A DNA stretch of 55,090 bases, taken from positions 1-55,090 of the forward strand of contig PATE01000102.1 in assembly GCA_002712305.1 (NCBI GenBank), written 5' to 3'. Position 1 is the first letter of the stretch. Each line of letters opens with the position of its first letter. This document shows positions 11,874-55,090 of the stretch, piece by piece. The stretch comes from Gemmatimonadota bacterium (GTDB lineage: Bacteria > Latescibacterota > UBA2968 > UBA8231). A model generated the notes under the pieces. The model saw only the letters and a program-made list of their open reading frames with translations. It searched no databases and was not told the DNA's origin. The position numbers were made by a program, and so were the translations under genes.

Positions 11874-14552
11874 ATGACCACGCCAACACCCTCTTCGCTG
11901 TCTCGATTCTGTCGCACGGTTCTGCCCCAGATGGTTGCCGCCTCGGATGGCAAACGCACACTGAAGACCATCGATGACATCCAAGCGACGGATCAGTACA
12001 ACTCGTTCGATCGATTCCACGACACGAGCCAGACCCTCGTCGACTACTACCAGCGTGCGGGTGCCGGTGCCGAGATCACACCGATTCAGACGGGCGGTGA
12101 TATCGGCACAGGTCGATGGATCATTCAGGAGGCGCAGGATGTGCATTCGGCCACCGTCGATGTGGTGGCTCCCGTGCGCCAGCGGATCATCGACTTCAAG
12201 GAGAATCCCTGGCATGTGGTGCAGTGGTCGTCGGCCACGCCAAAACAAGGCCTGCACTGTGAGTTGGTGGTGATCGACGATCTGGCGTCGCTATCGAGTC
12301 TACGACCGGGGGCGCTGCGCGGGAAGGCCGTGTTGACCCGTGGCAATATCCGCGGAATGACGATGAAACAGCTGGCCCATGTAGGGGCCGCCGTCGTGAT
12401 CACCGACATCGATGTGACCAACAATCCAGATGCCCTGGCGTGGACGAAGTTTGGCTGGGGCATGGTGCCCATGAGCCATGCCACTGCCCGCATCGTCGGA
12501 TTGGTCATGTCGACGCAGCAGGGCGATCGCCTGAGAAGACTCCATCAGCGCCATGGAGGGTTGCAGCTGCGGGTGAAGGTGGACGTGCGAAAGTATGTGG
12601 GCCACCACGACATGGTGTCCGGTCTGATTCGTGGCTCCGAGGATCCGCAGGATGAGATCTGGGCCATCGCACACAGTGGTGAACCGGGCGCGATCGACAA
12701 CGCTTCGGGATGTGCCGTCACTGTCGAGATCGCGCAGATCATCGAAGGCCTCATTGCGAAGGGCACGCTGCGGCGGCCCCGTCGTACGATCAGGCTGCTC
12801 AATGCCTACGAGTGCTACGGATTTTTTGCCTATCTGGAGAGAGAGCACAGTCTCCAGACACCGATGGCCGGTGTGTGCATCGACACGGTCGGCGCCAAGC
12901 CGAGTGTGTGCGGTGGGCGACTCGAATGGCATGCGACGATCCCATCGTCGGCGGGGTTCGTCGACTGGATTGGTGAGAAGATCCTCCGGGCAACGCTGGG
13001 CAACTACAAGGCAGCCGGGTACAAACTGTGCATGGAAGACTTCATGTCCACGTCCGATACCCTCATCGGAGATCCACAATACGGCTATCCCTGCCCGTGG
13101 ATTACGACCCATCACAAAGAGGGCAAGGGGAGTACGTGGGATGCGTATCACTCCTCCGCTGACCAGCTCAATCTGCTCAGTGCGGCAGGGATGAAGACAT
13201 GCTCGGTGAGCATGGCGGCCTATCTCTACTGGCTGGCCGATATGGATACAACGAGTGCCCTGCAAGTCGCTAAAAGTGAGACCAAGCGGCTGACGGACGT
13301 GATCGATACGTCCCGTCGTCGGCTGGATCGAGCCGGCGCCGACTACATCGCTGAGACCCATGAGGTCGGTATGCAGCGGTTGCAGCGCTTCCTGTGGGGA
13401 GGGGATCGGGCAGCGATTCAGCAGGAGATCGGCGAATGTCGAGCTCAGATGTCTGCGGCTGCGGCGCAGGTGAAGAAACAGGGCCCGAAGAGGCGCCTCG
13501 ATGCTTCTGCTCGGCGGGTGCCGCGACGGACGGCCCTGCTCGCACCCACGACGGAAAACGTGGAGGCTTCCATCGGCAGTCGACTGAGCCAGGCGCGTCT
13601 GTCGCAGTGGTCCCTCTACTGGGCGGATGGGCGCCGCACCGTCGCCGAGATCGCCGATCGAATCAGCTGGGAGTGGGCCGGACTGCTCGCACCGCGAGAT
13701 GGTGGTGGCCCTCGACCCGATGTGTCTGCAGAACGCGTGGCCGGTTACTTCGAGGCGCTGGCAGATCTCGACTACGTGGAGTTGCCGGAACAGGCTGAGA
13801 TGGTAAGTCGGCGAGACATGGTAGATGACCTGCGTGCCCTCGGCATCACCGCCGGGATGGACGTCATGGTTCACAGCTCACTGTCGAAGATCGGTGATGT
13901 TGCCGGTGGTGGGGCCACGGTGGTGGAGGCTCTGGTAGAAGCTGTCGGCTCGCGCGGCACCGTGCTCGCCCCGTCCTTCAATCACAAAGCGGCGCAGGTC
14001 TACAACCCGCTCACAACACCTACGACCAATGGAGCCATCGCCGATGCGCTTTGGCGTCATCCGCGAGCGGCTCGATCGATGCATGCGACCCATGCGGTGG
14101 CTGCCATCGGAGCAAAGGCCGATCACTACGTGGCGGACCATCTACACGCAGGGATCTGGTCCGAAGACAGCCCGATCGGCAAACTCGTGCACGGCGACGG
14201 ATACCTGCTGGCCCTCGGGGTCACACACTGGACGACGACGGCTTACCACGTGGCCGAATGCTCCATGCCCTGTGGATGTATCGATCCCTTCGGCAATGTC
14301 GACCGCGTCGTGACCGAGCAGGGAAGTGTCGAGGAAGTCTGGGGTCTGGCGTTTCGGTCTGGCGAGTGCCCGGTCGAGATCAGCCCGAAACTCGACAGTG
14401 CTCTCGATCGGCGTGGTCTGCAGCGGCGTGGCAAAGTGGGTGACGCAGATTGTGAACTGGTGCGTGCCAGCGATCTGTGGAAGGTCCGGCGTGAGCATCT
14501 GCGGGGTGTCTGCCGCGCGTGCAAGGTGAAACCCAGATACCGGAACGACTGA
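11874..14552 (+). CDS. M28-like aminopeptidase fused to an aminoglycoside 3-N-acetyltransferase-like domain
   Basis: An 892-residue cytoplasmic protein with three parts. Residues ~30-460 are an M28/DUF4910-type aminopeptidase. Metal-site residues are in order: His267 (AHSGEPG), Asp275 (AIDNASG), Glu313 (AYECYG), Asp337 (CIDTVG) and His426 (DAYHSSAD). A PA-like segment (~125-210) is inserted before them. Residues ~555-640 look like a winged-helix segment (RRTVAEIADRISWEW). Residues ~644-830 resemble AAC(3) antibiotic N-acetyltransferases: MVHSSLSKIGDVAGGGATVV, RSMHATHAVAAIGAKAD, SPIGKL, and TAYHVAE at 789-795. A CxxC pair near the end (CRAC) is extra. Shine-Dalgarno AGGAAAG precedes the ATG. 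The next genes are a PIG-L-like protein and a GNAT, suggesting work on an amine-containing metabolite. The substrate is unknown. Confidence 0.82.
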   Translation: MTTPTPSSLSRFCRTVLPQMVAASDGKRTLKTIDDIQATDQYNSFDRFHDTSQTLVDYYQRAGAGAEITPIQTGGDIGTGRWIIQEAQDVHSATVDVVAPVRQRIIDFKENPWHVVQWSSATPKQGLHCELVVIDDLASLSSLRPGALRGKAVLTRGNIRGMTMKQLAHVGAAVVITDIDVTNNPDALAWTKFGWGMVPMSHATARIVGLVMSTQQGDRLRRLHQRHGGLQLRVKVDVRKYVGHHDMVSGLIRGSEDPQDEIWAIAHSGEPGAIDNASGCAVTVEIAQIIEGLIAKGTLRRPRRTIRLLNAYECYGFFAYLEREHSLQTPMAGVCIDTVGAKPSVCGGRLEWHATIPSSAGFVDWIGEKILRATLGNYKAAGYKLCMEDFMSTSDTLIGDPQYGYPCPWITTHHKEGKGSTWDAYHSSADQLNLLSAAGMKTCSVSMAAYLYWLADMDTTSALQVAKSETKRLTDVIDTSRRRLDRAGADYIAETHEVGMQRLQRFLWGGDRAAIQQEIGECRAQMSAAAAQVKKQGPKRRLDASARRVPRRTALLAPTTENVEASIGSRLSQARLSQWSLYWADGRRTVAEIADRISWEWAGLLAPRDGGGPRPDVSAERVAGYFEALADLDYVELPEQAEMVSRRDMVDDLRALGITAGMDVMVHSSLSKIGDVAGGGATVVEALVEAVGSRGTVLAPSFNHKAAQVYNPLTTPTTNGAIADALWRHPRAARSMHATHAVAAIGAKADHYVADHLHAGIWSEDSPIGKLVHGDGYLLALGVTHWTTTAYHVAECSMPCGCIDPFGNVDRVVTEQGSVEEVWGLAFRSGECPVEISPKLDSALDRRGLQRRGKVGDADCELVRASDLWKVRREHLRGVCRACKVKPRYRND

Positions 14553-40017: not shown

Positions 40018-41958
40018 ATGTTGCGCAAGCTAACGATCGCAGCTGCCGCCATCGCTCTGATGGCCGGTACCGCGAGCGCGCAGTTCCTCCACATCGGAGA
40101 TCCGGATGTGCAGTTGGCGGATCTCACCAGTGGCGGTAAGCCTAACACACTTACCATTTCAGGCATTTCGGGAACCGCCGACTATGCCTTTGGTGGCGCA
40201 CCTCTCGATGTTTCGTTCAATCTGGACGGCTCGGGTGCGACAGTGTGGTTGATTGTCTACACAGCTGGAAAGTCTGCTCCTTACACCATCGAAGGTGCAG
40301 GCCCTGGCCCGTATGCCGACCCAGAGAATGCTGCTCCCGGTTGGCACGTGTACAGCGGCGTGAACACGCTGGTCGCCAAGACTTCGGGTGAGCGCCTCGG
40401 CGAGGGTGCCAACACGATCCAGTGGAATGGCCTTGATAAGGACGGCAATCCGGTGCCGCCTGGTTCCTACAATCTCTTTATCGCTGCCTTCGATGACGAA
40501 GCCACACCCCACGTCGTCGGTGTCGGTACCCGCCAGTTTGGATCGGGTGCGACGGTCTACTTCAACACCCAGCGTGGTGAGATCGTCAACTTCAATGGCG
40601 GTGAAGTCTCCAACATGGAAAACGACTGGATCAGCAACCTCGAGGGTTTCGATCTGATCGACAACCAGGCTGTTACTGATGCATGCGCCGGGCGTGAAGG
40701 CTGTGGGGCGGGTATCCACAGTGCGACGCCGCTGAACGGGGGACTCACCGACTGGATCGGCAACAATCGTGGTGGTGGCGTGGGCTGGCTCTATCGTTTC
40801 CAATACGACTGGGACACGCGTCAGGTCACGACGGTCGAGGACTGGGGCGTCGACAACGGAGCCGAGAATGGCATTCTGAGCCTGGGCGAGATCCTACCTG
40901 GTCGTCAGTATCACTCGACGACCGACGCTGCCAAGGGTGAGGTCTACGCGACGGCCGGCGTGTCCGGTACCGTTTCTAAGGTCTCCACCTGGAGCGTGGG
41001 CGACGCTTCATTCATTCCGGCCAAGGACTGGGATCTCTCTGACCTGTTCCTCTACGACAACAATGGTTCCGATCGCTCCGGCGGTCCGGGAACGCTCGCT
41101 CGTTTCTTCAATGGTGCGCCCGATCCTGCAGGAATCACGATGTCCGGTCACCATACGTCCCTCACAGCTCGTATGGACTATAACGGTAACATCAAGTATC
41201 TGAACCGCAACGGTGACGGATTTGGTGACTCGCGCACCTTCGCCGACGGTACGTTCGGTGAGTTCGAGTATGGTCACACGGAGGCGCCTGCCTTCAAGTA
41301 CAGCCTGTACTCCACGAAGTACGGTTGGGTGACCAACATCGAAGCTGGTACCGACAACTCCAAGAATGGCTTCATGCTGGGTGAAGATGGTTCGGGCCTC
41401 TTCCACTTCGAGCCGAAGCGGATTCCCATCACCTGGCCGCAGCTCAACGTCATCATCGACGAAGACGGCGATTGGGACGGCATGTACATGCAGGTCGGTG
41501 GATTTGGCGATGCAGCTCTCGCCAACGACTTCATCCCCGAGCCGGTGCCGAGAGATGATGGTTCGATTCCTCTGGCCATCCTCTCGCGTTATCCGATCGT
41601 GCAGCTGCCGTACGACCAGAAGCGCGTTCCTCTCGGCAACCCTCCGACCGCGATTCTCGAGCAGTCGGCTGAGGTTCCTGACGGTTTCGAGCTGAGCGAG
41701 GCGTATCCCAACCCGTTCAACCCCGAGACCACAATCCGCTTCCAGTTGCCGACGGCTGAGCACTTCACCATCACCGTCTACAACGAGCATGGTCAGGCTG
41801 TTCGCACCCTCGCCGACCAGCAGTTGGGTCCGGGTACGTTCGACATTACCTGGGACGGCCAGGACGACAACGGCCGTTCGGTGGCGTCTGGTGTCTATAT
41901 GTATCTGATCGAGGGGCCGAACCTTCGTACGCACAAGAAGGTTACGCTCCTGAAGTAG
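40018..41958 (+). CDS. Secreted surface protein with FlgD/type-IX-like C-terminal sorting domain
   Basis: 646 residues with signal peptide (LTIAAAAIALMAGTASA-QF). Residues ~80-170 hold a FlgD-like Ig segment (ANTIQWNGLDKDGNPVPPGS). The middle resembles beta-rich secreted repeats without known family. The C-terminal ~85 residues form a FlgD/type-A-like sorting domain: LSEAYPNPFNPETTIRFQLP, FTITVYNEHGQAVRTL, FDITWDGQDDNGRSVASGVY, ending with HKKVTLLK. This resembles CTDs of type-IX-secreted cargo in Bacteroidota. The gene has its own promoter, good Shine-Dalgarno and a terminator, all signs of high expression. It is probably an abundant surface or S-layer-like protein. Confidence 0.82.
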   Translation: MLRKLTIAAAAIALMAGTASAQFLHIGDPDVQLADLTSGGKPNTLTISGISGTADYAFGGAPLDVSFNLDGSGATVWLIVYTAGKSAPYTIEGAGPGPYADPENAAPGWHVYSGVNTLVAKTSGERLGEGANTIQWNGLDKDGNPVPPGSYNLFIAAFDDEATPHVVGVGTRQFGSGATVYFNTQRGEIVNFNGGEVSNMENDWISNLEGFDLIDNQAVTDACAGREGCGAGIHSATPLNGGLTDWIGNNRGGGVGWLYRFQYDWDTRQVTTVEDWGVDNGAENGILSLGEILPGRQYHSTTDAAKGEVYATAGVSGTVSKVSTWSVGDASFIPAKDWDLSDLFLYDNNGSDRSGGPGTLARFFNGAPDPAGITMSGHHTSLTARMDYNGNIKYLNRNGDGFGDSRTFADGTFGEFEYGHTEAPAFKYSLYSTKYGWVTNIEAGTDNSKNGFMLGEDGSGLFHFEPKRIPITWPQLNVIIDEDGDWDGMYMQVGGFGDAALANDFIPEPVPRDDGSIPLAILSRYPIVQLPYDQKRVPLGNPPTAILEQSAEVPDGFELSEAYPNPFNPETTIRFQLPTAEHFTITVYNEHGQAVRTLADQQLGPGTFDITWDGQDDNGRSVASGVYMYLIEGPNLRTHKKVTLLK

Positions 41959-42064: not shown

Positions 42065-44176
42065 ATGGCCCGGTTTCGTCTCAGCGGCTTCTGGCTTGCG
42101 CTGATTGCCGTTTTCCTCGCGGCGAGTGTCCATGCACAGCCCTCTCGCACCGTCATCAACACCTGGCCATCGACGACACACTATCTGGGTTTTGCACAGT
42201 TTTCCGGGAAAGATGACGGTCAGATTCGCATCTCAGCGGCTGGTGCATATACGCTGTATCTCAATGGTGACCTTGTCGGGGCAGATGACGATCCGACCAC
42301 GGTCGAGACCTACCAGGTATCGTTCAGAAATCGCGAAAATGTGATCGCCGTCGTTTCCGAACACGACGGCAGCAATTCCCCCTACGGGTTGTTCGTCGTC
42401 ATCGAGAGTCCGCAGGGAACGATTGCCAGTTCCGCCGAAGACCGCCTGGCCCCATGGTTCTGGAGCGATGCGGCACTACCGAACGAAGCCGGGGCGGACT
42501 GGACCGAACCACGGTTGAGTCGTCTCGACGATCTCGAGTTGGATGATGTTCCCGTCGTCTTCACACCCGTCCAGACGGGCACCTTCGATCCAACGGGATT
42601 TGCCGATTTTGCCGATATAGATATGACCCGTGCCAAGAGCATCGCCGGGTACGGTGGCGGAATCGATGGAAGTCTCGACGGACTGCAGTTGCGTTCACTG
42701 GTGGGCACCAATATTGCCTTCAGCTCGCTGTCTGATCAGCCACGCCTCGTCGATGGCGACGTGTCCAGTGCGGTGTCTTTCCGGAGAGGGGCGACATCGC
42801 TGCTGCAGCGGGTGCAGACAGATCTCGGTAGATTAATCACCATCGACCGTGTGCGCGTGGTGACTCAACCCCCGAGCAAGTCGAGTTCCTACGAAAACAA
42901 CTCGCTGCGTGGCTACAGCATTCTCGTCAGCAAAGATGGTGTCGGTTTTACTGAGGTAGCGGCACGCAATCAGATTGAGACCTTCCGCGAGACGGAGGTC
43001 ACCTTCGCGCCGATCGCGGCTCGACACGTTCGCCTGGTGGTGACCGAGTTCTCCGCCCGCGACGCTTCGCCGCAAGTGGCTGAGTTAGAGGTGTTCGGTG
43101 TCGGTCTCGACCAGCAGGGAACGTTCCGGTCTCTGGCCCTCGACCTGGGAACGAGTCAACCGAAGAATTTCGACAGTGCCCAATGGTTTGGTGAACTGGG
43201 CAAGGCGAGTGAACTGGAACTGCGCTTTCGATCGGGCAATGATGGGGTGAGTTGGAGCACCTGGTCACCGTGGGCCGCAGACAGTGTCATCGCCCTGCAA
43301 GTCCCAGAGCCGGCCCAGTGGCTTCAGTTCGAAGCACGAATGGAGACGCGAGACCTTTTCGCAGGCCCGCGACTCGACAGCATCGTCGTCAACTTCAATA
43401 CAGATGACCTCCCTGTGGCTAGTGCGGCCAGTTCCATCACGCCGTTGCAGGTGAATATCGGCGTCGATACGGATTTCACCTACACGCTCGATGTTGAAGT
43501 GGATGGCTCAAGCGCCGGTGTCGAGAGGATCGTCGTCTTGACTCCGTATCCGGCCGCGTTGAATACATCTTCCGTCACCGGCCTGGGCGCCTCGGCGATT
43601 GATCTGGCCAACACATACAGCACGAATGACTCCCTCGTCATTAGTTTGACGCCCCCCTTGGCGGCCTCGACGCAGGTCACCTTCGATTTCAGCTCTCGAC
43701 TGCTTTCTGGCAGTCACGCATTTACGGCGTTGGTCGCCTCGCCAGGTTCCACCAATCCGTTGCTTGCCGTGACCCGTGAAGATGCCATCGATACGCTGTC
43801 GACGATCGTCGAGGCGCTCCAACTGTCCTTCCCGGTTCTGTCTGAGGTCGCTCCGAATCCACGGGTGGTAACGCCCAACGATGATGGTGCCAACGAATGG
43901 GCCACTATCGGTTTCGTCCTCGGTCGTGTCACGCAAGTACCCGTACATGTTGAGATCTACGATCTGGCGGGTCGCCTCGTACGCCGCCTGCCAGAGCGGA
44001 TGCTGCGAGCCGGGAGTTACCTCGGCGGCCAAGACGATCCAACGCATCCCGGTGCCTGGAATGGTCGCAACGACGCGGGGGACCTCGTTCCCCCCGGCAC
44101 GTATGTCTTTCGTCTGGTGGTCGACATAGACCCCGATGCCGAGACGTCCGTCGGCCTCGTCGGCGTCGCCTACTGA
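42065..44176 (+). CDS. Secreted discoidin-like protein with C-terminal FlgD-type domain
   Basis: 703 residues with signal peptide (ALIAVFLAASVHA-QP). Residues ~210-350 resemble an F5/8-type (discoidin) galactose-binding fold (LGRLITIDRVRVVTQ, TEVTFAPIAARHVRLVV, VAELEVFG). The C-terminal ~110 residues form a FlgD-like domain with VTPNDDGANEWATIGF, which resembles the T-P-N-x-D-G motif of gliding-associated type-B sorting domains. VHVEIYDLAGRLVRRL and GAWNGRNDAGDLVPPGTY follow. It thus combines a binding fold and a sorting-like end. Shine-Dalgarno GAGGT precedes the ATG. It is the first gene of the barrel-protein operon. Confidence 0.78.
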   Translation: MARFRLSGFWLALIAVFLAASVHAQPSRTVINTWPSTTHYLGFAQFSGKDDGQIRISAAGAYTLYLNGDLVGADDDPTTVETYQVSFRNRENVIAVVSEHDGSNSPYGLFVVIESPQGTIASSAEDRLAPWFWSDAALPNEAGADWTEPRLSRLDDLELDDVPVVFTPVQTGTFDPTGFADFADIDMTRAKSIAGYGGGIDGSLDGLQLRSLVGTNIAFSSLSDQPRLVDGDVSSAVSFRRGATSLLQRVQTDLGRLITIDRVRVVTQPPSKSSSYENNSLRGYSILVSKDGVGFTEVAARNQIETFRETEVTFAPIAARHVRLVVTEFSARDASPQVAELEVFGVGLDQQGTFRSLALDLGTSQPKNFDSAQWFGELGKASELELRFRSGNDGVSWSTWSPWAADSVIALQVPEPAQWLQFEARMETRDLFAGPRLDSIVVNFNTDDLPVASAASSITPLQVNIGVDTDFTYTLDVEVDGSSAGVERIVVLTPYPAALNTSSVTGLGASAIDLANTYSTNDSLVISLTPPLAASTQVTFDFSSRLLSGSHAFTALVASPGSTNPLLAVTREDAIDTLSTIVEALQLSFPVLSEVAPNPRVVTPNDDGANEWATIGFVLGRVTQVPVHVEIYDLAGRLVRRLPERMLRAGSYLGGQDDPTHPGAWNGRNDAGDLVPPGTYVFRLVVDIDPDAETSVGLVGVAY

Positions 44177-44192
44177 GCGCCCAACGCACTCC

Positions 44193-46922
44193 ATGCATCG
44201 AAACGGTCTACACCGTCTGTCGTTCGCACGCGTCTTCATCGCGGGGATGGCTCTGTGTCTGACTGCCAGTGTGTGTGCTCCCGTTTCAGCCCAGTTTCTA
44301 TCGCGCGACTTTCGCGAACTGTGGGCCAACGAGGTCTTCGAGAACTACGGCCCGGGTGGCTATCGCGACTACGATTTCGGTGAAGAGAACCGTCGCTTCG
44401 ATCTATTCGGTGATCTCATCGTCGACGGTGTCGACATCGTGCACATGGAAGAGGTGCGGCGCGATCGTCCAGGACTCCGCGGCAGCTATGAACAGAGGAA
44501 TGGTCGCTACGATCGCTTCTTCGACAAACTGGTAATCGCCAATGAGGGGTTCGGTCCCTGGTCGACGAGGCTGATCATCGGCGATCACATCAGCACCCAT
44601 TTCACCCCCATGACGCTCAACATGCCGCGGTTCAATGGGATGCGCTGGGATGGTTCGTCGAGCAGTAACAGCTTCACCGTCATTGCAAGTCACTTCACCG
44701 ATCCTGTCATCGTTCCGAACAACGCTGACATCGAGACAGACTTCAATCGTCGACGGATCTTCGGGACATCAGCTCTGGCGGGTCACTGGGAGAGTCAGAT
44801 CGGTGGCGCCCTGCGCATCGGCACGACGTTCATCAATACCCACCGCTTCGATTCAGAAGCGGGAACCGACCTCAATGGCATGCGCGGTACGGTCCCGAGG
44901 GTCATGCACGGTGGGCTGCGCAAGCTCTTCGTCTTCGTCACCGATGACAACCCAGAGAATGACACGCCCGGGGCGACGGTCCACGAACTGAGCATGTTCA
45001 TCGACGGCAACGAAGTATTGCCACTTCGTGTCGCCCAGATCGATCACCTGCTGCAGCAACTGCCTGTCACGCCTGATCTGACCAGTACGATCCTGCTGAA
45101 ATCCAATGAAGTCAGTTTCCTGCGCAAGAACGGTCCTTGGCTCCAACCGGTTATCGATGCGAGCAACACGCCCTTCTTCACAGCAGTCCTTGGCGATATC
45201 TCTCACACCGTAGCCCCCGCCTCCTTGGGAAGCCCGTTGTCGGCCGCCGGTGACAACGTGGTGTTTTACGAGTTCGAAGTGCCCGACACGACGCGCAACA
45301 TTGAGTTTGAGGCGGTCGTCAGCGACGACTATAGCATCGACATCGCTGGGGCGATGAACGTACCTGTCTTCGCGTCTCGCGCGACCGACTTCTACTACGA
45401 CTGGCAGAATACGGCGCGTGCCGAAGGTGCCCCCGGAGGTGGAGCGAATCTCAAGCGAATCCGCTTCGATTACGGATTCCCAACGGGGCTTAATATCCTG
45501 GGCGCAAACTTCGAAGCTCATTTTCTTGGCTTTGACGCCCGGGGCGAGTTCGCGCGTAGCACCCGATTCTACAAGGTGCCAGCCGCAGGGGGAGAACGAT
45601 CGAAGGAAGAGGCGGATACCTACTACCTCCAGATTGCCCGTGAACTTCGGGAAGGGTTGAACGTTGGCTTCGAAGTCTTCGACGTGCCTGGAGACTACAC
45701 CACAAGCTTCTCGCGTTTCAGATTGTCCAACTCGAGCACCAGTATCGGCGGACGGTTGTATCAGCCGGTGCAGTTGGTGGCTGACAACGACGATCTCGAC
45801 CAGTGGGAGGATCGAATAGAGCACAATGATCCCCTCGCACCGGAGGCCACCTCAACCTCGGCGCCAGGTCATGGTGTATTCCCGGGTCTCGATCCTGACA
45901 ATGACGGTGTCCTCGACTTCAATATTGACAATGGCCGAGGCACCGACGCCTTCCAGCCCTTCCTCGGCTATGTCGCCGAGCCGCCAGAGTTGGTTTACGG
46001 AGATGATTTCAACAACAACGGCGTCGCGGACTTCCGCGAGAATGACAACCTGCCAGACTATCTGTATCCCCTCGATCACAAGGGATACCACACGCGCCTC
46101 GACTATCAACTCACGTCGAATACGCAGTTGCGCGCCGGTTTATACGCCATCGATCAGCCAGAGCTGGGTCGACGCAATGACACTCGATACATCGAGGGGC
46201 GTTACCTGCGTCAGTGGGACCAAAGCGGATATCTGCGGATCAATCAACGTTTCAAGTGGCTGAAGGACGATACGCCGAACACGATCTATTCATCGGCCGT
46301 GATCAATGACCCCTTTTCCCGGACATACGTCCTCGACAACGACCTGCTGCAGGGTCGCAACAGTCGAAACAGCCTGACATATGTTGAGTGGGGTCTGACG
46401 ACGATTCCGAAGGTCAATATCCGGAACATCGTCTCGGTGGGCCTGACCGACATCAACGGTGAAGCGCCAGAAGACCCGCTGTTCACGCGACCGGGTTCGG
46501 TGACCGAGTTGTCTGCCGTCAGCAAGGCTGACTACACATGGCGTCGCGGCCGTTTCACGCTGACGCCGCAGATCAAGCACATCTACCAGTACACGAAGGT
46601 GCCAGAGCGCGACATTCCCGAGCGCCAGCGACGCTGGATCATGCCGATCCTTCGCGCCGACATGCAGGTGGGCCCCCGAACGGTCTTGAAGACGGGTATT
46701 CAGGGGCTTCCTCTGCTCAACGAACGCACGTCGGATCCGGCAAATCCCGAACAGAACTTCCGACGGCGTACGTACACGGCCTTCCTGCAGAATCGCAGCA
46801 ACTATCAGGGGTATGACCTCACCGTCCTGATGGGCATCTATCGCACGAAGGTGAACTACACGGGCTCAACGCGGCCTTCGTCCGGGTCCCTTGAGTACTT
46901 CTTCCGGGTGTATATCGGCTAA
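44193..46922 (+). CDS. Barrel-like envelope protein, tandem paralogue A
   Basis: 909 residues. The signal peptide ends near VCAPVSA-QF; the start ATG 44193 excludes an upstream in-frame ATG that overlaps the previous gene. Segments shared with paralogues B and C, in order: an N-terminal FGDLIVDGVDI-like block, TRLIIGDHI..HFTPMTLNM..FNGMRWD (blocks separated), IGTTFINTHRF, VVFYEFEVPD, ARAEGAPGGG, a segment with FPTGLNILGANF, then VFPGLDPDNDGVLDF and DDFNNNGVADFRENDNLPDY. The last two are Ca-binding-like loops (D-x-D-x-D-G). The C-terminal ~200 residues show alternating strands with aromatic ends (RTVLKTGIQGL, SLEYFFRVYIG), typical of outer-membrane barrels. Function unknown. Confidence 0.72.
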   Translation: MHRNGLHRLSFARVFIAGMALCLTASVCAPVSAQFLSRDFRELWANEVFENYGPGGYRDYDFGEENRRFDLFGDLIVDGVDIVHMEEVRRDRPGLRGSYEQRNGRYDRFFDKLVIANEGFGPWSTRLIIGDHISTHFTPMTLNMPRFNGMRWDGSSSSNSFTVIASHFTDPVIVPNNADIETDFNRRRIFGTSALAGHWESQIGGALRIGTTFINTHRFDSEAGTDLNGMRGTVPRVMHGGLRKLFVFVTDDNPENDTPGATVHELSMFIDGNEVLPLRVAQIDHLLQQLPVTPDLTSTILLKSNEVSFLRKNGPWLQPVIDASNTPFFTAVLGDISHTVAPASLGSPLSAAGDNVVFYEFEVPDTTRNIEFEAVVSDDYSIDIAGAMNVPVFASRATDFYYDWQNTARAEGAPGGGANLKRIRFDYGFPTGLNILGANFEAHFLGFDARGEFARSTRFYKVPAAGGERSKEEADTYYLQIARELREGLNVGFEVFDVPGDYTTSFSRFRLSNSSTSIGGRLYQPVQLVADNDDLDQWEDRIEHNDPLAPEATSTSAPGHGVFPGLDPDNDGVLDFNIDNGRGTDAFQPFLGYVAEPPELVYGDDFNNNGVADFRENDNLPDYLYPLDHKGYHTRLDYQLTSNTQLRAGLYAIDQPELGRRNDTRYIEGRYLRQWDQSGYLRINQRFKWLKDDTPNTIYSSAVINDPFSRTYVLDNDLLQGRNSRNSLTYVEWGLTTIPKVNIRNIVSVGLTDINGEAPEDPLFTRPGSVTELSAVSKADYTWRRGRFTLTPQIKHIYQYTKVPERDIPERQRRWIMPILRADMQVGPRTVLKTGIQGLPLLNERTSDPANPEQNFRRRTYTAFLQNRSNYQGYDLTVLMGIYRTKVNYTGSTRPSSGSLEYFFRVYIG

Positions 46923-49738
46923 TGCGTACCCTGGTGAAGTTCCTGCGCGCTTTCGCGCCATTGGCGGCCCTCACGCTGGCCATTCCGGCACAAGCCCCGG
47001 CGGAGTTGTTGTTCCGTCCGGGTCAGCCTTACGTGAACTACGCCTACGAGAGTTATCGGGCTTACGACTCTATTCTCTTCGGTCGTGACCGGACGCCACA
47101 GTTTGATGCGTTGGGTCAGTTCGTGATGAATGGAATCAACGTCTTTGAGATGCAGGAGTTCCGTTCGATCAGCCCCTCACCGGGTAGCATCGTACGCAAA
47201 CCCCAGCTCTACGGGACCTACCTGAATCGACTCGTCGTCGCCGACGACAGTTACAAGGGCGTCACAACACGCTTCATCATCGGCGACCGGATCCGCGCCA
47301 AGTTCACGCCGCTGACCCTCGACCTGGCAGCCATGAACGGGATGCGACTCGATTCGCACTTCCGCGGCGGATCTCTCGTGCTGGTGACCTCGCGTGTGGA
47401 CAAGCCGATCTTCGAGGCCCTGCAGAACAATGACCACCGGATTCACGGCTCTGAATCGTCTGAATTCATCCCTCGATGGGCGACCTATCTCATGGGAGCC
47501 GATCTGCGCACGCAGCTGCAGGGGCTCGATGCGGGTTTCTCGTGGGTCAACCAGTTCCGTACAGACAGTCTTCGCGATCTGGGTGAGAACAGTTTCAAGG
47601 GCACCCTGCCGAGCATCGGTGTCGCACCACAGTGGGTGGTCGTTCGCGTGGCTGACCAGTACGTGGACGACGCCGTTGGTGCTCGGGTACGTGGTGCCAC
47701 CCTCTATCTGAATGGTCAGCCCTTTCGGCCCGAGGTCGCTGCCTACGACAAGACCACGCCTGATCGTCTGACCATGACTGTTACTCTCGATCCTGACAGA
47801 GCGGTCATCCCACCGGCGGGACGGGACAACTCGAATACTCTGGTCATCGAACAACCACATCAGCTGCCCTCACCTGAGGGCTTTTACGAGACCGAAGGGG
47901 AAGAGGCGCTGTTGTTATGGTTCAAGGTCCCCTCGACCCTTCCCGGAGACGGGGCCTTCGGTGATCCAGTGGAAGAGGTTGAGGTCGAGTTAGAGGTGGC
48001 CGGCGACTATCAGATCGAGTTGTCGGAAGTCTTCGAGGGAGCTTCGTCGAATCCGGTGACGTACTTCTACACGGCGGCCCAGTCCGAAGGTCGGCCGGAG
48101 ATCGGCAATTTCCGCCGAGTACGGGTGCGTTATGGCCGCCAGACAGGTCGCACCTTGCTGAGTGCGCATGTGAATCTGGATATCAAGGGGTGGCTGCTGC
48201 ACAGCGAGATCGTGCGCAACTACAGCTACCGGGCCTACCCGGGGCTGAATCGTCGCAAGCTCGACATCTTCGACGACCAGACCCATGCGTGGTTCTTTAA
48301 TTTCCGGCGCGATTTCGGCCATTTCAGCCTCGGTGGTGAGGCTTACAATGTGGATGGCCGGTATTCCACGGTGCTGAATGTGCAGGACGACGATCTGCGG
48401 AGTTACTTCCAGTTCCTGTCCAGCCCGTTCAGTTATCCGACCAACTTCAACGAGCCTCGTCTGGCGAATTTTGTCGCCGGCAATCGGGCGGCGCCCACGA
48501 ATACGATCGAGTTCAATACGGTCGACGACAATGATGACAAGGATCAGTATCCCGACAGTTACTTCCTTCGTCGCACGACCGATCTGTCGACGGGCGGTCG
48601 ATTCATCGAAGATCCGGACGGCGTGTTTCCCGGGCTCGACGCAGATCTGAACGGTCGTCCCGATATCAACGAGAACAACAATCTCATCCCGGATTACTAC
48701 GAGCCATTCCTTCTCTTCGACGTGAATCCCGATGCCTATGAATTCGGCGAAGATCTGAATGGGAATGGTGTGATCGACGATCGGGAAAATGACGAGTTGC
48801 CCGACTATCCATATGACGCGGATCGTCGAGGTTATCATCTGTTCGGCGAGATGCCCATCCCGGGATTGCCAGCGGCCAAGGCGACACTCAGCCACTACCA
48901 GACTTCGGCGCCCTTCCAGGGTGGAGAGGCCCAGGTCTCGTATCTGCGGGCTGAAATGAGCCGACGATTCCCGTTCATCGGCAATCTGCTCGGCATCTAC
49001 AAGCTCAAGCGCATCGAGGACGACATTCCCGATCCGGTGTTTGGTCTGGGTCGAAGTCCCATTTATTTCGAGCCGGATGTCTTGCCGCCGGAAAGCCTGT
49101 CAGACGAGGAGCGCCTCAATCCGCTCGGGATTCCGGTGCTGCAGCCGGATCCACTGCTGTTCAGGGACAGTTGGGTGAACCGGTTCTACGTGAAGGGGCA
49201 GTTCACGCGCATCGAGAATCTGCTCGTCGAAGTCAGCAGTCGGTACGATCGCAACCGACAGCACTCGATCGGCGACCAGTCATCGAACACCATCTCAGAC
49301 TGGGCCTATGTAGCCCGGGTCGGCTACACGTGGAACCCTTGGCGGGCACTGCGAGTGATCCCACAGGTGAAATGGCTGAGCCAGGATCTCAGCGATGACG
49401 ACGGAACCGTCCTGGAGATCGACGAGCAATTCTTCTATCCGATCCTCCGGTTGGAATACCCCATCTCCAGTCGCACAACGATCAAAGCCGGTGCGCAGGG
49501 CTTTCCCATCCTCGAGAGCAGCTATCGAAATGAGTTCTCGCCTGACGTTGATTTCGATGAGAAAGTCTATCTCGTCCAGCTGAACAACACGTCGAATTAC
49601 GTGGGTTATGAGGTCAACGTGAACCTCGGATACGAACGGCGTCAGCGCCGATTCCTCGACAAATCACGACGAGATCAGGATCTCGATTTCCATCGCTTCT
49701 TCCTGCGTGTGATCGCAGGCCTACGGCCACTGTTCTGA
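46922..49738 (+). CDS. Barrel-like envelope protein, tandem paralogue B
   Basis: 938 residues with signal peptide near LAIPAQA-PAE. It has the same block order as A: TRFIIGDRI with AKFTPLTLDLAAMNGMRLD, YLMGADLRTQL..GFSWVNQF (blocks), LLLWFKVPST, AAQSEGRPEIGNFRRVRV, VFPGLDADLNGRPDINENNN, and EDLNGNGVIDDRENDELPDY. The end is RTTIKAGAQGFPILESS, YVGYEVNVNLGYERR and FLRVIAGLRPLF; the terminal Phe is a normal barrel C-terminus. It is joined to A by TAATG and to C by TGATG, one-base overlaps, so the three are translated together. It lacks the second half of the ARAEGAPGGG-type glycine tract seen in A and C. Function unknown. Confidence 0.72.
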   Translation: MRTLVKFLRAFAPLAALTLAIPAQAPAELLFRPGQPYVNYAYESYRAYDSILFGRDRTPQFDALGQFVMNGINVFEMQEFRSISPSPGSIVRKPQLYGTYLNRLVVADDSYKGVTTRFIIGDRIRAKFTPLTLDLAAMNGMRLDSHFRGGSLVLVTSRVDKPIFEALQNNDHRIHGSESSEFIPRWATYLMGADLRTQLQGLDAGFSWVNQFRTDSLRDLGENSFKGTLPSIGVAPQWVVVRVADQYVDDAVGARVRGATLYLNGQPFRPEVAAYDKTTPDRLTMTVTLDPDRAVIPPAGRDNSNTLVIEQPHQLPSPEGFYETEGEEALLLWFKVPSTLPGDGAFGDPVEEVEVELEVAGDYQIELSEVFEGASSNPVTYFYTAAQSEGRPEIGNFRRVRVRYGRQTGRTLLSAHVNLDIKGWLLHSEIVRNYSYRAYPGLNRRKLDIFDDQTHAWFFNFRRDFGHFSLGGEAYNVDGRYSTVLNVQDDDLRSYFQFLSSPFSYPTNFNEPRLANFVAGNRAAPTNTIEFNTVDDNDDKDQYPDSYFLRRTTDLSTGGRFIEDPDGVFPGLDADLNGRPDINENNNLIPDYYEPFLLFDVNPDAYEFGEDLNGNGVIDDRENDELPDYPYDADRRGYHLFGEMPIPGLPAAKATLSHYQTSAPFQGGEAQVSYLRAEMSRRFPFIGNLLGIYKLKRIEDDIPDPVFGLGRSPIYFEPDVLPPESLSDEERLNPLGIPVLQPDPLLFRDSWVNRFYVKGQFTRIENLLVEVSSRYDRNRQHSIGDQSSNTISDWAYVARVGYTWNPWRALRVIPQVKWLSQDLSDDDGTVLEIDEQFFYPILRLEYPISSRTTIKAGAQGFPILESSYRNEFSPDVDFDEKVYLVQLNNTSNYVGYEVNVNLGYERRQRRFLDKSRRDQDLDFHRFFLRVIAGLRPLF

Positions 49739-52700
49739 TGTCGATGATTCGACGACAACTCCGGCGCCCAGCGCGATGGTTGATGGTAGGGGCCATTCCA
49801 TTCGTGATGCTCGCCGTCGACGTATCTGCCCAAGGCGAAGCCGTCGAGGATACACCCGAGTCGCCGGCCGTCGGTCCCCAGCGAATCATCGAGTCGCAGC
49901 CATTCGTGGGTCGCTTTGGTAGTGATTACACCAACTGGGGCGAGCAGGACTATCCGCGCCTGGTGGGTGTCACGAGCAATCTGCGCAACTTCTACAGCAT
50001 CTTGGGCGATCCCCTCGTCTACGGTTCCGAGTCCATTCGCTGGGTGGAGAGTCGTGGTCTGGGTGTGCAGCGGTTTCAGAACGGGACATCGCTGAACGAG
50101 AATCTCGTCCATGGTGAATCCGGCGCGAGCTTCTCGAAGCTGTTCAACTATGTCGTTGTCGGCACGGATGGTACGTCTGGGTGGCAGTCGCGGGTTATCT
50201 ACGCCAACGAGCTGCGTACCAAACTCACTCCGCTGACGTTCAAAATGTCGAATCTCAACGGACTGCGGCTGGATATCGGGACGAAGCTCGACGGCTTTTC
50301 GATGATGTTCTCCCGCCTCCACGCGCCGATCTATTCCTCCGGTGCAGAGAACGACAGGTCCATCAAGGCGAAGGCGCTCCTGTTCGGGATGCACTACGAA
50401 CGCAAGGTCGGCTTCATGAATTTCGGCACGACCTTCATCAATGCGCACCAGTATGAACCACTCATGCAGGAAAGCGCGTTGTCGTTCAAAGGCGTGCCCG
50501 GTGCCATGCAGGGAACACCAACCTTGTTGGCGATTCGTATCTCGGATGATTCTCCCACTGACGGCCAGGGCCCGGTTCTTCACGACGTGTCGGTTGTCGT
50601 CAATGGTGTGGAACGGCCTGAAATCGAGCCCTTTGTCGTGCTGCAGCAGAAGCGGGGAGATGATCGTCAGAGCTACATCGCAGGTCTGTTGCGTAACGGC
50701 GATCGGCGGCCCCTCCCGCCACTGGCCAACGACTATCAGTCTCTGAACCGCGGTGGTTCATACAACACCTACGACGGTTACATCAACTATGCCCTGTTCG
50801 ACGTGGATGTCTACTACCGGGGATACGAATTCCCCTTATGGATCGACCATCTCTACTACCGGGATTACAAGGTCAATGGGCCTGACTATGTGATCAATCC
50901 AGATCACGACGAGGGTGAGAACGACATCATCGTCGGTGAAGAGTTCGCGTATGAGGCCGTGGAAGCGACGGGCGATTTCGACTTTGCGGGTATGGGGGAT
51001 CTGCCGCAGCCTCTCGATGGTGATACATACGGAATTCTCTATATCGACCTCGAAGACGTGGGAGAGACGATCCAGACCGTCCACGTCGATCTGGGCCTGT
51101 CAGGTGACTACCGGGTGGAGTTGTCCGAACTCGATCTGGCAGGGTCGACAAATACAGGCATCCGCGACAACTACCGAGACAAATACCGCTACGCCAGCTA
51201 CTTCCGCACCGTCGCTCGTGCTGAGGGCAACCCGGGGGGTGACATGGTGCGGCGTGTGCGCGTGAAGAGCGGTGTTCCCACGGGGCTGAACATCTACAGC
51301 GCCAATATGTATGGTGTCTACAAGGGATGGCAGATCAACGGAGAGATCAGCCGATCCTCCGCTTTCTATCAGTACGCCAGCGGTTTGCCGCGGCCACGCG
51401 TCTCCCTCGAATCGGTCAGTCTCAACGCGCTTGCCCGAGAGCAGGCACGGGGTGGGCGGTCGCAGGTAAGCGACGTGGCATACTACCTGACCGCGGAGAG
51501 AGATTTCGACCGCTTCGGCGTCGGCGCCGAACTCTTTGCTATCGGGCCGCTGTACGAGACCGAACTGCGCACATACATCGGTCGTGACGAGGTGGATGTA
51601 TCCGGAAATCCCATCGCCTATAACAACACGATGATTCATCGTTTTGTCGAAGACAATGACGATGACGACCGCTATCCCGATAGTTGGTACAACAATGCCC
51701 CCAGTGATCTGCAGGGCCAGTCAGACGTAGACGGTGTGTTTCCTGGACTGGACGAGGATTCAGACGGCATCCCTGACACGAATAAAGACTTCGATGCCAT
51801 ACCGGATCACCAGGAACCGTTCCTGATGTATAGCTCGGATCCACAGATCTATGACTTCGGCCTCGATCTCAACCACAACGACTTCATCGACGTCCGTGAG
51901 AACGATACCAACGCAGACCTCCCGTACGATCAGGATCTGAAGGGGATTCACGGTTACAGCAGTCTCCACCTCATGCCCGGACTCGAGTTGAGTCTCGGTG
52001 TCCTGCGAGGAGAGCAGATCGCCGGGGCGGCGCCCAACAACTCAGCCTACGCCCGACTCGAGTTGGTGAAGCAGACGCCCTCGGTGGGTCGTTTCTACGC
52101 CCATGCTTCTGCCGAACGGGTCGAGGACAGCGTCCGTGACTCGCTGAGTGTCTACTCCGATCGTGTGCTGACCGTATCGGAACAGTTTAACCTTAACTTT
52201 GCCGGTCTACAGCGCAATATCCAGATCGCTCCATTCCTGGAAGAGCCGCTGATTGATCCGCTTCTGTTTCAGAATTCCAACTGGTACCGTTTTTACACCG
52301 ACTCCCAGTGGATGTCCATTCCCGGGTTGTCCATGCGGAACAAGGTCAAGTTTGAGATCAACGACCAGCGTGAGGGCAAGCTCTGGGATGGGAATGAGCA
52401 GGAGGGGGAGCAGCTGAATCGATGGACGATGGTCCACACCTTTGACTATCGCTGGTCGATCAGTTCGAGATGGACCCTGTTCACGGGCTACAAGATGCGC
52501 TATCGCAAGGAGTGGACGGGCAGCCAGGACATTCCCTCGATTCATGAGCGTCACTCGATTCCGCTGAGTAAGCTGGAATACCGACTCACGGAACGAACAA
52601 GATTCCAACTTGGCTTCCAGGGATTCGGGCCGTGGTTGCCTTACCGCGTCACAGACCTGGTGAATCCAGAGATCGACTTCGAGCAGAATGACACTGTTCT

Positions 52701-52863
52701 GATGTTGACGAACAACTCCAACTACTTTGGCTACATCCTGACCACGACGATGGGGATGAGCAAGCGTCTCAAGGAATTCGCGGATCCTGCGGTGGCCTCT
52801 GTTGGCGATGAGGATTTCGTGTCCGCGTTCATTAAAGTCTTCGTCGGATTTGCAGACGAGTAA
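49738..52863 (+). CDS. Barrel-like envelope protein, tandem paralogue C
   Basis: 1041 residues, the largest copy. The signal peptide ends near LAVDVSA-QG. Blocks: ILGDPLVYGSESIRWV, LRTKLTPLTFKMSNLNGLRLD (in two parts), FGTTFINAHQYEP, LYIDLEDVGE, ARAEGNPGGDMVRRVRVKSG, VPTGLNIYSANMYG, VFPGLDEDSDGIPDTNKDFD and LDLNHNDFIDVRENDTNADL. An extra ~70-residue insertion near 335-410 contains VDVYYRGYEFPLWIDHLYYR. The end is RTRFQLGFQGFGPWLPY and IKVFVGFADE. It overlaps paralogue B by one base and is followed by the TPR gene after 8 bases. It is clearly homologous to A and B but has diverged; function unknown. Confidence 0.72.
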   Translation: MSMIRRQLRRPARWLMVGAIPFVMLAVDVSAQGEAVEDTPESPAVGPQRIIESQPFVGRFGSDYTNWGEQDYPRLVGVTSNLRNFYSILGDPLVYGSESIRWVESRGLGVQRFQNGTSLNENLVHGESGASFSKLFNYVVVGTDGTSGWQSRVIYANELRTKLTPLTFKMSNLNGLRLDIGTKLDGFSMMFSRLHAPIYSSGAENDRSIKAKALLFGMHYERKVGFMNFGTTFINAHQYEPLMQESALSFKGVPGAMQGTPTLLAIRISDDSPTDGQGPVLHDVSVVVNGVERPEIEPFVVLQQKRGDDRQSYIAGLLRNGDRRPLPPLANDYQSLNRGGSYNTYDGYINYALFDVDVYYRGYEFPLWIDHLYYRDYKVNGPDYVINPDHDEGENDIIVGEEFAYEAVEATGDFDFAGMGDLPQPLDGDTYGILYIDLEDVGETIQTVHVDLGLSGDYRVELSELDLAGSTNTGIRDNYRDKYRYASYFRTVARAEGNPGGDMVRRVRVKSGVPTGLNIYSANMYGVYKGWQINGEISRSSAFYQYASGLPRPRVSLESVSLNALAREQARGGRSQVSDVAYYLTAERDFDRFGVGAELFAIGPLYETELRTYIGRDEVDVSGNPIAYNNTMIHRFVEDNDDDDRYPDSWYNNAPSDLQGQSDVDGVFPGLDEDSDGIPDTNKDFDAIPDHQEPFLMYSSDPQIYDFGLDLNHNDFIDVRENDTNADLPYDQDLKGIHGYSSLHLMPGLELSLGVLRGEQIAGAAPNNSAYARLELVKQTPSVGRFYAHASAERVEDSVRDSLSVYSDRVLTVSEQFNLNFAGLQRNIQIAPFLEEPLIDPLLFQNSNWYRFYTDSQWMSIPGLSMRNKVKFEINDQREGKLWDGNEQEGEQLNRWTMVHTFDYRWSISSRWTLFTGYKMRYRKEWTGSQDIPSIHERHSIPLSKLEYRLTERTRFQLGFQGFGPWLPYRVTDLVNPEIDFEQNDTVLMLTNNSNYFGYILTTTMGMSKRLKEFADPAVASVGDEDFVSAFIKVFVGFADE

Positions 52864-52871
52864 GGGATCGT

Positions 52872-55090
52872 ATGGGACTCCTACTCGCAGTGCTCACCCT
52901 CGCGGGGACCTTCTTCTCCTTCCAATCGCCGTCGGAGAAGGAGTTGCTCGATCGCTTTGGCGAAGCGCAGAGGTTCTACGCGGAGGGCGCTTACGATCAG
53001 GCCATCACACACTACGACGCCGTCTCGCGGGTTCGCAGTCGAGTTCTCGATACCCAATTGCTCGACGTCACGGTGGGCGAGGCCTCCTATCCGGTGCAAG
53101 AGGCGGCTGTCTACCAGGTGGGCAACGCCAATGGCAAACTCTACTCTGACTACCGGCGTTTCTCCGAGAATGCCACCGACGATGAGACCCGGCAGGAGTT
53201 CGCAGATCTCGCCCAGAAAGCCCTCGAAGGTGCTCAGGCCGCCTTCAGGCAGGTCATCGACACGGCGACAAACGATCAGCTCCGAGGCCAGGCCTACGGA
53301 AGACTGATCGAGTTGTTCTATGAGGCGCAGCAGTTCGACCGCGTCATCGAGACCTCGGCCCAACTCATCGGGGCCTACGGCTCGAGTCCACTGGCCAAGA
53401 CGGGATACTACAACACGGGTTGGGCGTATTTCGAAACCAAGAGATATGAAGAGTCGATCGAAGCCTTTCAAGCTCTGCTCGATCGTTTTCCTGCTGGTTT
53501 CGAGGCAGATCGCTCACTGTTCCAGATGGGCGAGTGTTATCTCGAGCTGGAACGTTACGAAGAAGCGATCGGCGTCTACAGCGAGCTTGTGAAGCGCCAG
53601 CGCATCGACGAGTTGACGGAAGCAGAGCTGGAGCAGATTCGGCGTGAAAAGCTGGCCGGGCTCGTCGACGAGACGGCCCTCGAACTGGCAGCCAAGGCGC
53701 AGATCCGCGTCGGCACATGTTATGCCCGACTCGGCAAATACGACGAAGGTGTGGAAGCGTATCGCACCGTGATCGAACGGTTCGCAACCGAACGCGATCT
53801 CGTCGAAGAGGCGTATCTGCAGATGGCGCGGCTCTACGACGACGGTGGAAATGCGGAGGCCGCCGTGGCGACCTATCGCGAGGCGATCCGCGAGACCTCC
53901 GACAGGACGCTTCGCGCCCGTATCCAGTACGCCCTGGCCGAACGTCTGCTGGTGCGCGATCAATACGCGGATTCGATCACGGAGTTTCGTATCTACCTGC
54001 AGGCGTATGGTGACCGAGCTGCGCAGGCCGGTTTCAGCACGTCCCGGGTTCGTTATCGACTGGGCAGCGCCTATCAGCGCTGGGCCCAGGTCTCCATCGA
54101 AGCAGGAAGCCGCCCCATTGCTCACGAGCGCCTCAACGGCGCCATCGCACACTACGACACGCTACTGACGCAGGATCCAGCCGGTTCCTATTCGATCGAT
54201 GCCACGTTCAATCGAGCCGTCGCCATGCAGGCGATCGGCACCGCCGCCAGCCTTGATGCTGCACGACTTTCCTTCGAACGAATCGTGGCAGATGCGCAGA
54301 ACGCGGGTTATGTCGAGCGCTCTCTGGTGCAGCTTGCTGAGTTGCACGGCAAGCAGGGGGATCACGCCGCAGCCGTCAGCTCTGCGCAGCAACTTCTTGA
54401 CGAATACCCCGATAGTGAGCTGGCAGACGAGGCCTATCTGCTGATGGGGCTCGCCCATCAAGCCCAAGGCATACTGCAGTCCGCTGTCGACGCCTTCGCC
54501 CGTGTCTCGGCCACCTCGCCCCTCTACGGCAGAGCCGCAATGGGTGGTGGCCATGCGCTGCTGAGCCTGGGGCGTGCACAGGACGCAATCCCCACGCTGG
54601 ACGCGGGTGTTGAAACCGCCGACCAGGCGTATCTGAGTAGCTATCGATATCTGCTCGGTCAGTCCCACCAAGCACTAGGGGCGTCTGCCGAGGCCTTTGA
54701 TCAATTCAACAAGGGGCTGGCCGCCTCTCCTCCGCGCGACCTCGAAGAGGCCCTGCGATTGGCTCGAGGGAACGCAGCCCTGCTAACCGGGGATGACGAG
54801 ACGGCCATCGAGGATCTCGAGTGGGTGATCAACACCGTCGACGATCCTGCCAAGGTCAAATACGCGCGAGACGCACTGGCGATCTCCTATCTGCGACAGA
54901 ATCGTGGTAGTGATGCACTCACGATTCTCGATGAGATGACGCGCACCGCACAAACCCGTGAGGAGGAGGCAGATCTTCTGAGTCGGATCCTCGATCTCTA
55001 CTACGATCGAGACGACTACGACGAAGCCCTCGTCATCGCCCGGCGTCTGTTGGCCCTCGAGTTTGTCGACGAAGCGACACCCCAAAGACC
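52872..55090 (+). CDS. Tetratricopeptide-repeat protein, truncated at the window edge
   Basis: An open frame of 739 codons starts at ATG 52872, 8 bases after paralogue C, and runs off the right edge. The N-terminus (MGLLLAVLTLAGTFFSFQS) looks like a short signal peptide or anchor. Many TPR-like helical repeats follow, including AYFETKRYEESIEAFQALLD, YLELERYEEAIGVYSELVK, CYARLGKYDEGVEAYRTVIE and DRDDYDEALVIARRLLALE. TPR arrays of this kind (as in BamD, CpoB or gliding proteins) bind partner proteins in the periplasm. Its place directly after the barrel genes suggests an assembly or transport partner. Length and C-terminus are not visible. Confidence 0.78.
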   Translation, partial: MGLLLAVLTLAGTFFSFQSPSEKELLDRFGEAQRFYAEGAYDQAITHYDAVSRVRSRVLDTQLLDVTVGEASYPVQEAAVYQVGNANGKLYSDYRRFSENATDDETRQEFADLAQKALEGAQAAFRQVIDTATNDQLRGQAYGRLIELFYEAQQFDRVIETSAQLIGAYGSSPLAKTGYYNTGWAYFETKRYEESIEAFQALLDRFPAGFEADRSLFQMGECYLELERYEEAIGVYSELVKRQRIDELTEAELEQIRREKLAGLVDETALELAAKAQIRVGTCYARLGKYDEGVEAYRTVIERFATERDLVEEAYLQMARLYDDGGNAEAAVATYREAIRETSDRTLRARIQYALAERLLVRDQYADSITEFRIYLQAYGDRAAQAGFSTSRVRYRLGSAYQRWAQVSIEAGSRPIAHERLNGAIAHYDTLLTQDPAGSYSIDATFNRAVAMQAIGTAASLDAARLSFERIVADAQNAGYVERSLVQLAELHGKQGDHAAAVSSAQQLLDEYPDSELADEAYLLMGLAHQAQGILQSAVDAFARVSATSPLYGRAAMGGGHALLSLGRAQDAIPTLDAGVETADQAYLSSYRYLLGQSHQALGASAEAFDQFNKGLAASPPRDLEEALRLARGNAALLTGDDETAIEDLEWVINTVDDPAKVKYARDALAISYLRQNRGSDALTILDEMTRTAQTREEEADLLSRILDLYYDRDDYDEALVIARRLLALEFVDEATPQR

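Follow-up and report, generated by a model that had tools for sequence, protein, structure and literature searches.

The question raised by this locus is what three consecutive genes, called A, B and C here, encode and in what kind of system their products take part. The genes lie near the end of a 55,090-nucleotide stretch (the window; positions 1 to 55,090 of contig PATE01000102.1 in assembly GCA_002712305.1, which is filed as a Gemmatimonadota bacterium and placed by GTDB in the Latescibacterota). A reading made from the letters alone, called the sequence-only reading below, had described three tandem paralogues of a giant barrel-like protein of no recognised family and had thought a hetero-oligomeric outer-membrane (OM) machine plausible. 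The data presented here indicate that A, B and C represent a genuine and new protein family within a genuine conserved gene module, and that they belong to the class of OM beta-barrels, B by its structural model and A and C by homology. Our preferred reading, to which we give a probability of about one half, is that the three proteins would form a powered surface platform that receives S1 and S2, two upstream-encoded proteins of the kind exported by the type IX secretion system (T9SS), and that is linked to an ExbB/ExbD motor. The computed support consists of the barrel fold, the conservation of loops, the inheritance of the triad, the operon and T9SS context and the topology of a putative transducer; from these we infer how A, B and C might assemble, bind cargo, couple to force and serve the cell.

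The open reading frame (ORF) list of the window places A, B and C head to tail on the + strand, and the single-base overlaps described earlier were read at both junctions, as TAATG at 46920-46924 between A and B and as TGATG at 49736-49740 between B and C. By sequence comparison the three are paralogues along nearly their whole length, with similarity well above chance, as the sequence-only reading had claimed. BLASTP aligned A with B at 27% identity over 975 columns (E=2e-67), B with C at 30% over 636 columns plus an N-terminal block (E=6e-66 and 4e-17), and A with C at 27% (E=1e-46 and 1e-19). The series of named blocks that the three copies were said to share does exist, but two of those blocks, ARAEG-PGG and GLNILGAN, are clear in A and C only, and their counterparts in B are degenerate (AQSEGRPEI and GRTLLSAH). 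All three proteins have signal-peptide-like N-termini.

No existing family was found to contain these proteins, which agrees with the earlier failure to recognise one. A, B and C matched nothing in Pfam or NCBIfam at E<=1 and no family in PHROGs, and a profile of 77 family sequences gave chance-level matches only (DegP-like, E 0.04) among PDB chain sequences. In the libraries used, no model of GltA, GltB or GltH gave a match. Three more specific assignments were considered and rejected because the defining domains are missing: TonB-dependent receptors (Plug, PF07715, and TonB_dep_Rec, without a Pfam match at E<=1), the SprA translocon (SprA_N, PF14349, absent from A, B and C) and PorP/SprF (PF11751 and TIGR03519, without a match in the three proteins). 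The sequence-only reading had named a match to a known family or a non-barrel fold in a model as grounds for abandoning it, and neither turned up.

The barrel fold was assessed with AlphaFold2, which was run on B with 77 relatives; the fold of A and C is taken by homology. The model of B (predicted local distance difference test 78.9, predicted template modelling score 0.80) has its 22 long strands between residues 114 and 934. The best Foldseek matches are OM barrels (SlpA, MtrB, LptD, FimD, FpvA and SprA), and a search with VIA-align gave Z up to 14, with porins, and again only OM barrels among the top PDB matches, so the barrel that had been claimed from the sequence is what the model returns. 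Foldseek against viral proteins found generic barrels only. The last strand of OM barrels is directed toward the periplasm. If this applies to B, strand counting puts both of its large inserts outside the cell and its N-terminus in the periplasm, and the periplasmic side would consist mostly of short turns. An aromatic residue closes 34 of 77 family members and AGF/AGY-like ends are common. The alternation of hydrophobicity in predicted strands (0.30-0.34, family mean 0.39) is mildly above that of shuffled sequences (0.26-0.27), and for this reason was not taken as proof of a barrel. A possible TonB box (QFI/QFL-x-R) at the mature N-terminus was rejected as uninformative; it adjoins the signal-peptide cleavage site.

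The best-conserved part of the barrel family is its Asp-rich loops. In B the ligand residues of the stretch D611-x-N613-x-N615-G-x-I-D619-x-x-E622 are arranged as in an EF-type loop. Four of them (D611, N615, D619 and E622) do not vary among 77/77 relatives, which represent at least six lineages, and N613 is kept in 76/77. Residues D536, N537, D539, D541 and D573 are also invariant across the 77 sequences. The Asp-rich insert of B is a putative calcium-binding element, and the comparison bears out the calcium-type loops noticed earlier.

The way in which the three genes are inherited bears on whether they act together. The barrel family is present in all 25 genomes of the window's own taxonomic family (its own genome included) and in 10 others of the phylum, and is absent from 22 genomes of three sister families; the sample for these and the other phylum-level counts was 60 relatives. 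Further members occur elsewhere in the window's genome. C43 carries an A-B pair at its end and C57 a complete A-B-C triad, and four "solo" members, which are more distant, lie on C47, C77 and, with two at one locus, C122. A scan of the genomes of 84,980 species found 358 encoding stretches, and the best 80 of these come from Latescibacterota, Ignavibacteria, Kryptonia, Zixibacteria, KSB1, Neomarinimicrobiota and "Bacteroidetes" metagenome-assembled genomes (MAGs), so that the family spans the Fibrobacterota-Chlorobiota-Bacteroidota (FCB) superphylum. Several MAGs named Gemmatimonadetes or Gemmatimonadaceae (L068, L069, L077, L080 and others) fall with the Latescibacterota sequences in the barrel tree, and their names may be wrong. 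In the other phyla the gene is single-copy. Within Latescibacterota the A-B-C order is kept in 23/23 intact triple loci, and A, B and C form separate clades (support 99-100 for A and C and 100 for B, also in an 86-sequence tree); it looks like a single-gene ancestor was turned into a three-part set. The pairwise-distance matrices of A, B and C correlate (r=0.967-0.987), and since some genomes hold two to four different triads, this co-inheritance goes back to duplication of the whole unit and not to the species tree alone. Fixed order and co-inheritance would be expected if the three were non-interchangeable parts of a single assembly, and together with the motor genes of the operon they leave the hetero-oligomeric machine of the sequence-only reading better founded than before, though they are no proof of contact. 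The sequence-only reading had included neither the single-copy state of the family in other FCB phyla nor the setting of T9SS cargo and ExbB/ExbD genes.

The genes on either side suggest what such an assembly might handle. S1 matches Pfam FlgD_ig (E 7e-19) and CHU_C (31 bits, cut-off 27) and NCBIfam Por_Secre_tail (TIGR04183, 29 bits, cut-off 23), and a homologue lies upstream of most triads. S2 matches Pfam F5_F8_type_C (44.8 bits, cut-off 28.2), and its CHU_C score (22.3) is under the cut-off. Outside Latescibacterota a PorV/PorQ-like gene lies between cargo and barrel, with scores (86.1 and 84.1 bits) below the cut-off of 90. SprA_N was found in the window's own genome (contig C91) and in 57/60 relatives, and GldM_1st was found in 0/60 relatives and in 0/6 barrel-bearing FCB genomes, whereas the same model matched 28/118 genomes of a Bacteroidota draw that served as control; the barrel occurs in two of those 118, neither of them GldM-positive. 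Presumably, then, T9SS cargo is exported in barrel-bearing cells without a recognisable GldM. For the Latescibacterota genomes as a whole (the window's own, G000, and 59 relatives), the presence of SprA with GldM undetected puts the power source of the T9SS in question. No paper linking Latescibacteria with type IX secretion was found in the literature searched.

Downstream of C the order is a TPR protein, a DUF5683-like protein, an fn3 protein, a protein of about 265 residues, DUF4159, ExbB and two ExbD. The fn3 and ~265-residue proteins have lipoprotein-like N-termini, and the TPR protein of the module measures about 1050-1080 residues. Past the window end, the same contig (locus L014) matches PF01618 (ExbB) once and PF02472 (ExbD) twice, so that Tol/Exb-type genes share a cluster with the barrels here and in many relatives. 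Among 30 assessable non-solo loci, a TPR gene lies downstream in 26 and a motor gene in 24. The DUF4159 proteins of single-barrel loci begin with a transmembrane helix that holds a conserved His, often as S-x-x-x-H in the manner of TonB/TolA, followed by a Pro/basic linker. In an AlphaFold2 model of one from Zixibacteria, the helix (residues 25-47) and a disordered part (~50-170) precede a globular domain that matches 4i66 (Haliangium Hoch_4089) at Z 22.6 and then GATase-like folds at Z ~9. The long DUF4159 proteins resemble periplasmic force transducers and may form a class not yet described; DUF4159 was unmentioned in the literature searched. The TonB/TolA-like topology is seen in the own-contig protein (L014:5100-6332) and in relatives such as L098:14884-16155. 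Separately, a short DUF4159 gene, with a frame of ~220-320 residues and often ~240, occurs in 59/60 relatives (for example G000:C4:23843-24415) and is thus nearly universal in the phylum; it outscores the long form by far.

Put together, the preferred reading would run as follows. A, B and C would be three specialised subunits, each a barrel of about 22 strands with large extracellular inserts, one of them calcium-binding, and would form a surface platform, probably a hetero-oligomer. The platform would receive and hold the C-terminal domain (CTD) proteins S1 and S2 after their export by the T9SS, and the periplasmic TPR protein and the DUF4159 transducer would connect it to the ExbB/ExbD proton motor, so that platform or cargo might be moved or gated by proton motive force. 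Candidate purposes in the cell are gliding-like movement, substrate capture and uptake. The fullest form of this proposal, an undescribed proton-driven machine of FCB bacteria in which a triplicated calcium-binding barrel hetero-oligomer moves or gates T9SS adhesins through a GATase-fold transducer where no GldM is recognisable, is put forward tentatively and is in our view rather doubtful. Several observations weigh against the preferred reading. The Foldseek TM-scores of B are low, about 0.2, so the match is to OM barrels in general and does not point to kinship with one family. Motor genes are lacking near solo members and near some triads. Most A-B-C operons, that of the window among them, encode a DUF4159 protein without the helix His, and coupling there may differ. 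Lastly, 24 relatives without a barrel (families f2, f3, f4 and f7) keep SprA, from which it follows that the barrel is not a core part of the T9SS.

The strongest rival is that the barrels are passive anchors that only tether T9SS CTD proteins while the ExbB/ExbD and DUF4159 neighbours serve another process. CTD proteins of the S1/S2 kind are indeed the most constant neighbours, being upstream in 40/44 assessable loci, most solo loci included, and they adjoin the barrels of a solo clade (L011, L012, L013, L127-L139) that lacks nearby motor genes. An additional F5/8C and CTD gene is inserted between B and C in six loci (L084, L085, L086, L087, L088 and L090; order S2-A-B-S2-C). This insertion hints at a separate cargo for C, as though each barrel unit had its own, and there is precedent for anchorage in PorP-PG1035 and SprF-SprB (PMC9143113). 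However, the single-copy barrel keeps its linkage to TPR, ExbB, ExbD and DUF4159 genes in Zixibacteria, KSB1, Ignavibacteria, Kryptonia and Neomarinimicrobiota, and a barrel of ~22 strands with inserts of 150-190 residues is far larger than PorP. We regard plain anchorage as possible though on balance improbable.

Next comes an energised importer, in which the barrels would resemble TonB-dependent transporters and S1 and S2 would capture ligands in a manner comparable to SusD. The count of 22 long strands, the presence of BtuB, FpvA and FemA among the Foldseek and VIA-align matches of B, the ~85 N-terminal residues (25-112) that precede the first strand, and the nearby ExbB/ExbD genes with a transducer of TonB topology would all fit. 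The lack of Plug and TonB_dep_Rec domains speaks against it, as do the large structured extracellular inserts, the three non-interchangeable paralogues and the T9SS cargo and PorV-like neighbours, which together make an importer unlikely. That A, B and C are instead an auxiliary part of export, as an alternative OM exit or processing site for CTD proteins, powered by ExbB/ExbD where GldL/GldM are missing, would suit the GldM counts and the PorV-like gene, but is very unlikely since a dedicated SprA is already in the genome and the SprA-positive genomes without a barrel must power their T9SS otherwise.

Table 1. Positions in the window of A, B, C, their inserts and loops, and the neighbouring genes
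Feature	Positions	Strand	Remarks
A, giant OM barrel paralogue, 909 aa	44193..46922	+	ATG at 44193; longer frame opens at 44136
B, giant OM barrel paralogue, 938 aa	46922..49738	+	AlphaFold2 model, 22 long strands
C, giant OM barrel paralogue, 1041 aa	49738..52863	+	extra insert at ~residues 330-400
B residues 216-405, 190-residue all-beta insert between barrel strands	47567..48136	+	AlphaFold2 secondary structure; sidedness inferred
B residues 478-634, 157-residue Asp-rich insert with Ca-type loops	48353..48823	+	AlphaFold2 and conservation; sidedness inferred
A, EF-type loop DFNNNGVADFRE	46005..46040	+	column conservation
B, EF-type loop DLNGNGVIDDRE	48752..48787	+	conservation across 77 sequences
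C, EF-type loop DLNHNDFIDVRE	51865..51900	+	alignment
S1, surface protein, 646 aa, FlgD_ig / CHU_C type T9SS-like C-terminal domain	40018..41958	+	
S2, surface protein, 703 aa, F5/8-type C (discoidin-like) and CHU_C/FlgD_ig-like C-terminus	42065..44176	+	
TPR protein, 1080 aa, leaves the window	52872..55090	+	TPR families; signal-peptide-like N-terminus; whole gene L014:873-4115

Elsewhere in the window, at 11874-14552, a Peptidase_M28-like stretch and an Antibiotic_NAT (AAC(3)-like) domain share a single ORF, which is an unusual combination.

The barrel family and its operon are found in a number of FCB phyla, mostly uncultured, and the libraries searched contain no entry for them. Were the preferred reading true, it would explain to what T9SS-exported surface proteins are attached outside the classical Bacteroidota, would name a candidate energy source for lineages that have SprA and no recognisable GldM, and would add a new fold to the force transducers of the TonB/TolA type.

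Two kinds of system already known stand behind the proposed machine, cargo-anchoring barrels and energised OM systems. Among the former, the PorP/SprF family consists of OM barrels that serve type B CTD proteins of the T9SS as anchors (PMC9143113), and the likeness lies in an OM barrel gene beside the gene of a CTD surface protein and in the proposed anchorage. However, A, B and C are proteins of ~1000 residues with ~22 strands and extracellular inserts, are triplicated and have their own ExbB/ExbD genes nearby. SprA is likewise a giant OM barrel of FCB bacteria and a weak Foldseek match (6h3i, E 1e-4), but this genome encodes it apart from the barrels, in one gene of its own, and A, B and C have no SprA_N. 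Of the energised systems, the Myxococcus machineries Agl-Glt, for gliding, and Nfs, for sporulation, combine a TolQ/TolR-type motor (AglRQS), TPR proteins, the TonB-domain protein GltG and several OM proteins (PMC3169522), and thus resemble the module in clustering genes for a proton motor and for TPR, TonB-type and OM proteins. Compared by description, they differ in that GltA, GltB and GltH have 209-275 residues as against 909-1041 for A, B and C, and Glt has no T9SS cargo and is confined to Myxococcales and Bdellovibrionales (PMC3169522). Fibrobacter succinogenes, an FCB bacterium with T9SS-exported surface enzymes, has a motor/TPR cluster (FSU_2396-2403) of TPR proteins, ExbB, two ExbD and a TonB-family protein (PMC6851124), though the published description of that cluster reports OmpA proteins in place of giant barrels. 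Finally, vWA force transducers consist of a transmembrane helix with a conserved His, a Pro-rich disordered linker and a globular CTD, and have TPR, TolQ and two TolR genes as neighbours (PMC12204202). The DUF4159 proteins share this three-part plan and the motor and TPR neighbours, but their C-terminal fold is GATase and not vWA, and, unlike the vWA transducers, their modules have an evident OM barrel partner.

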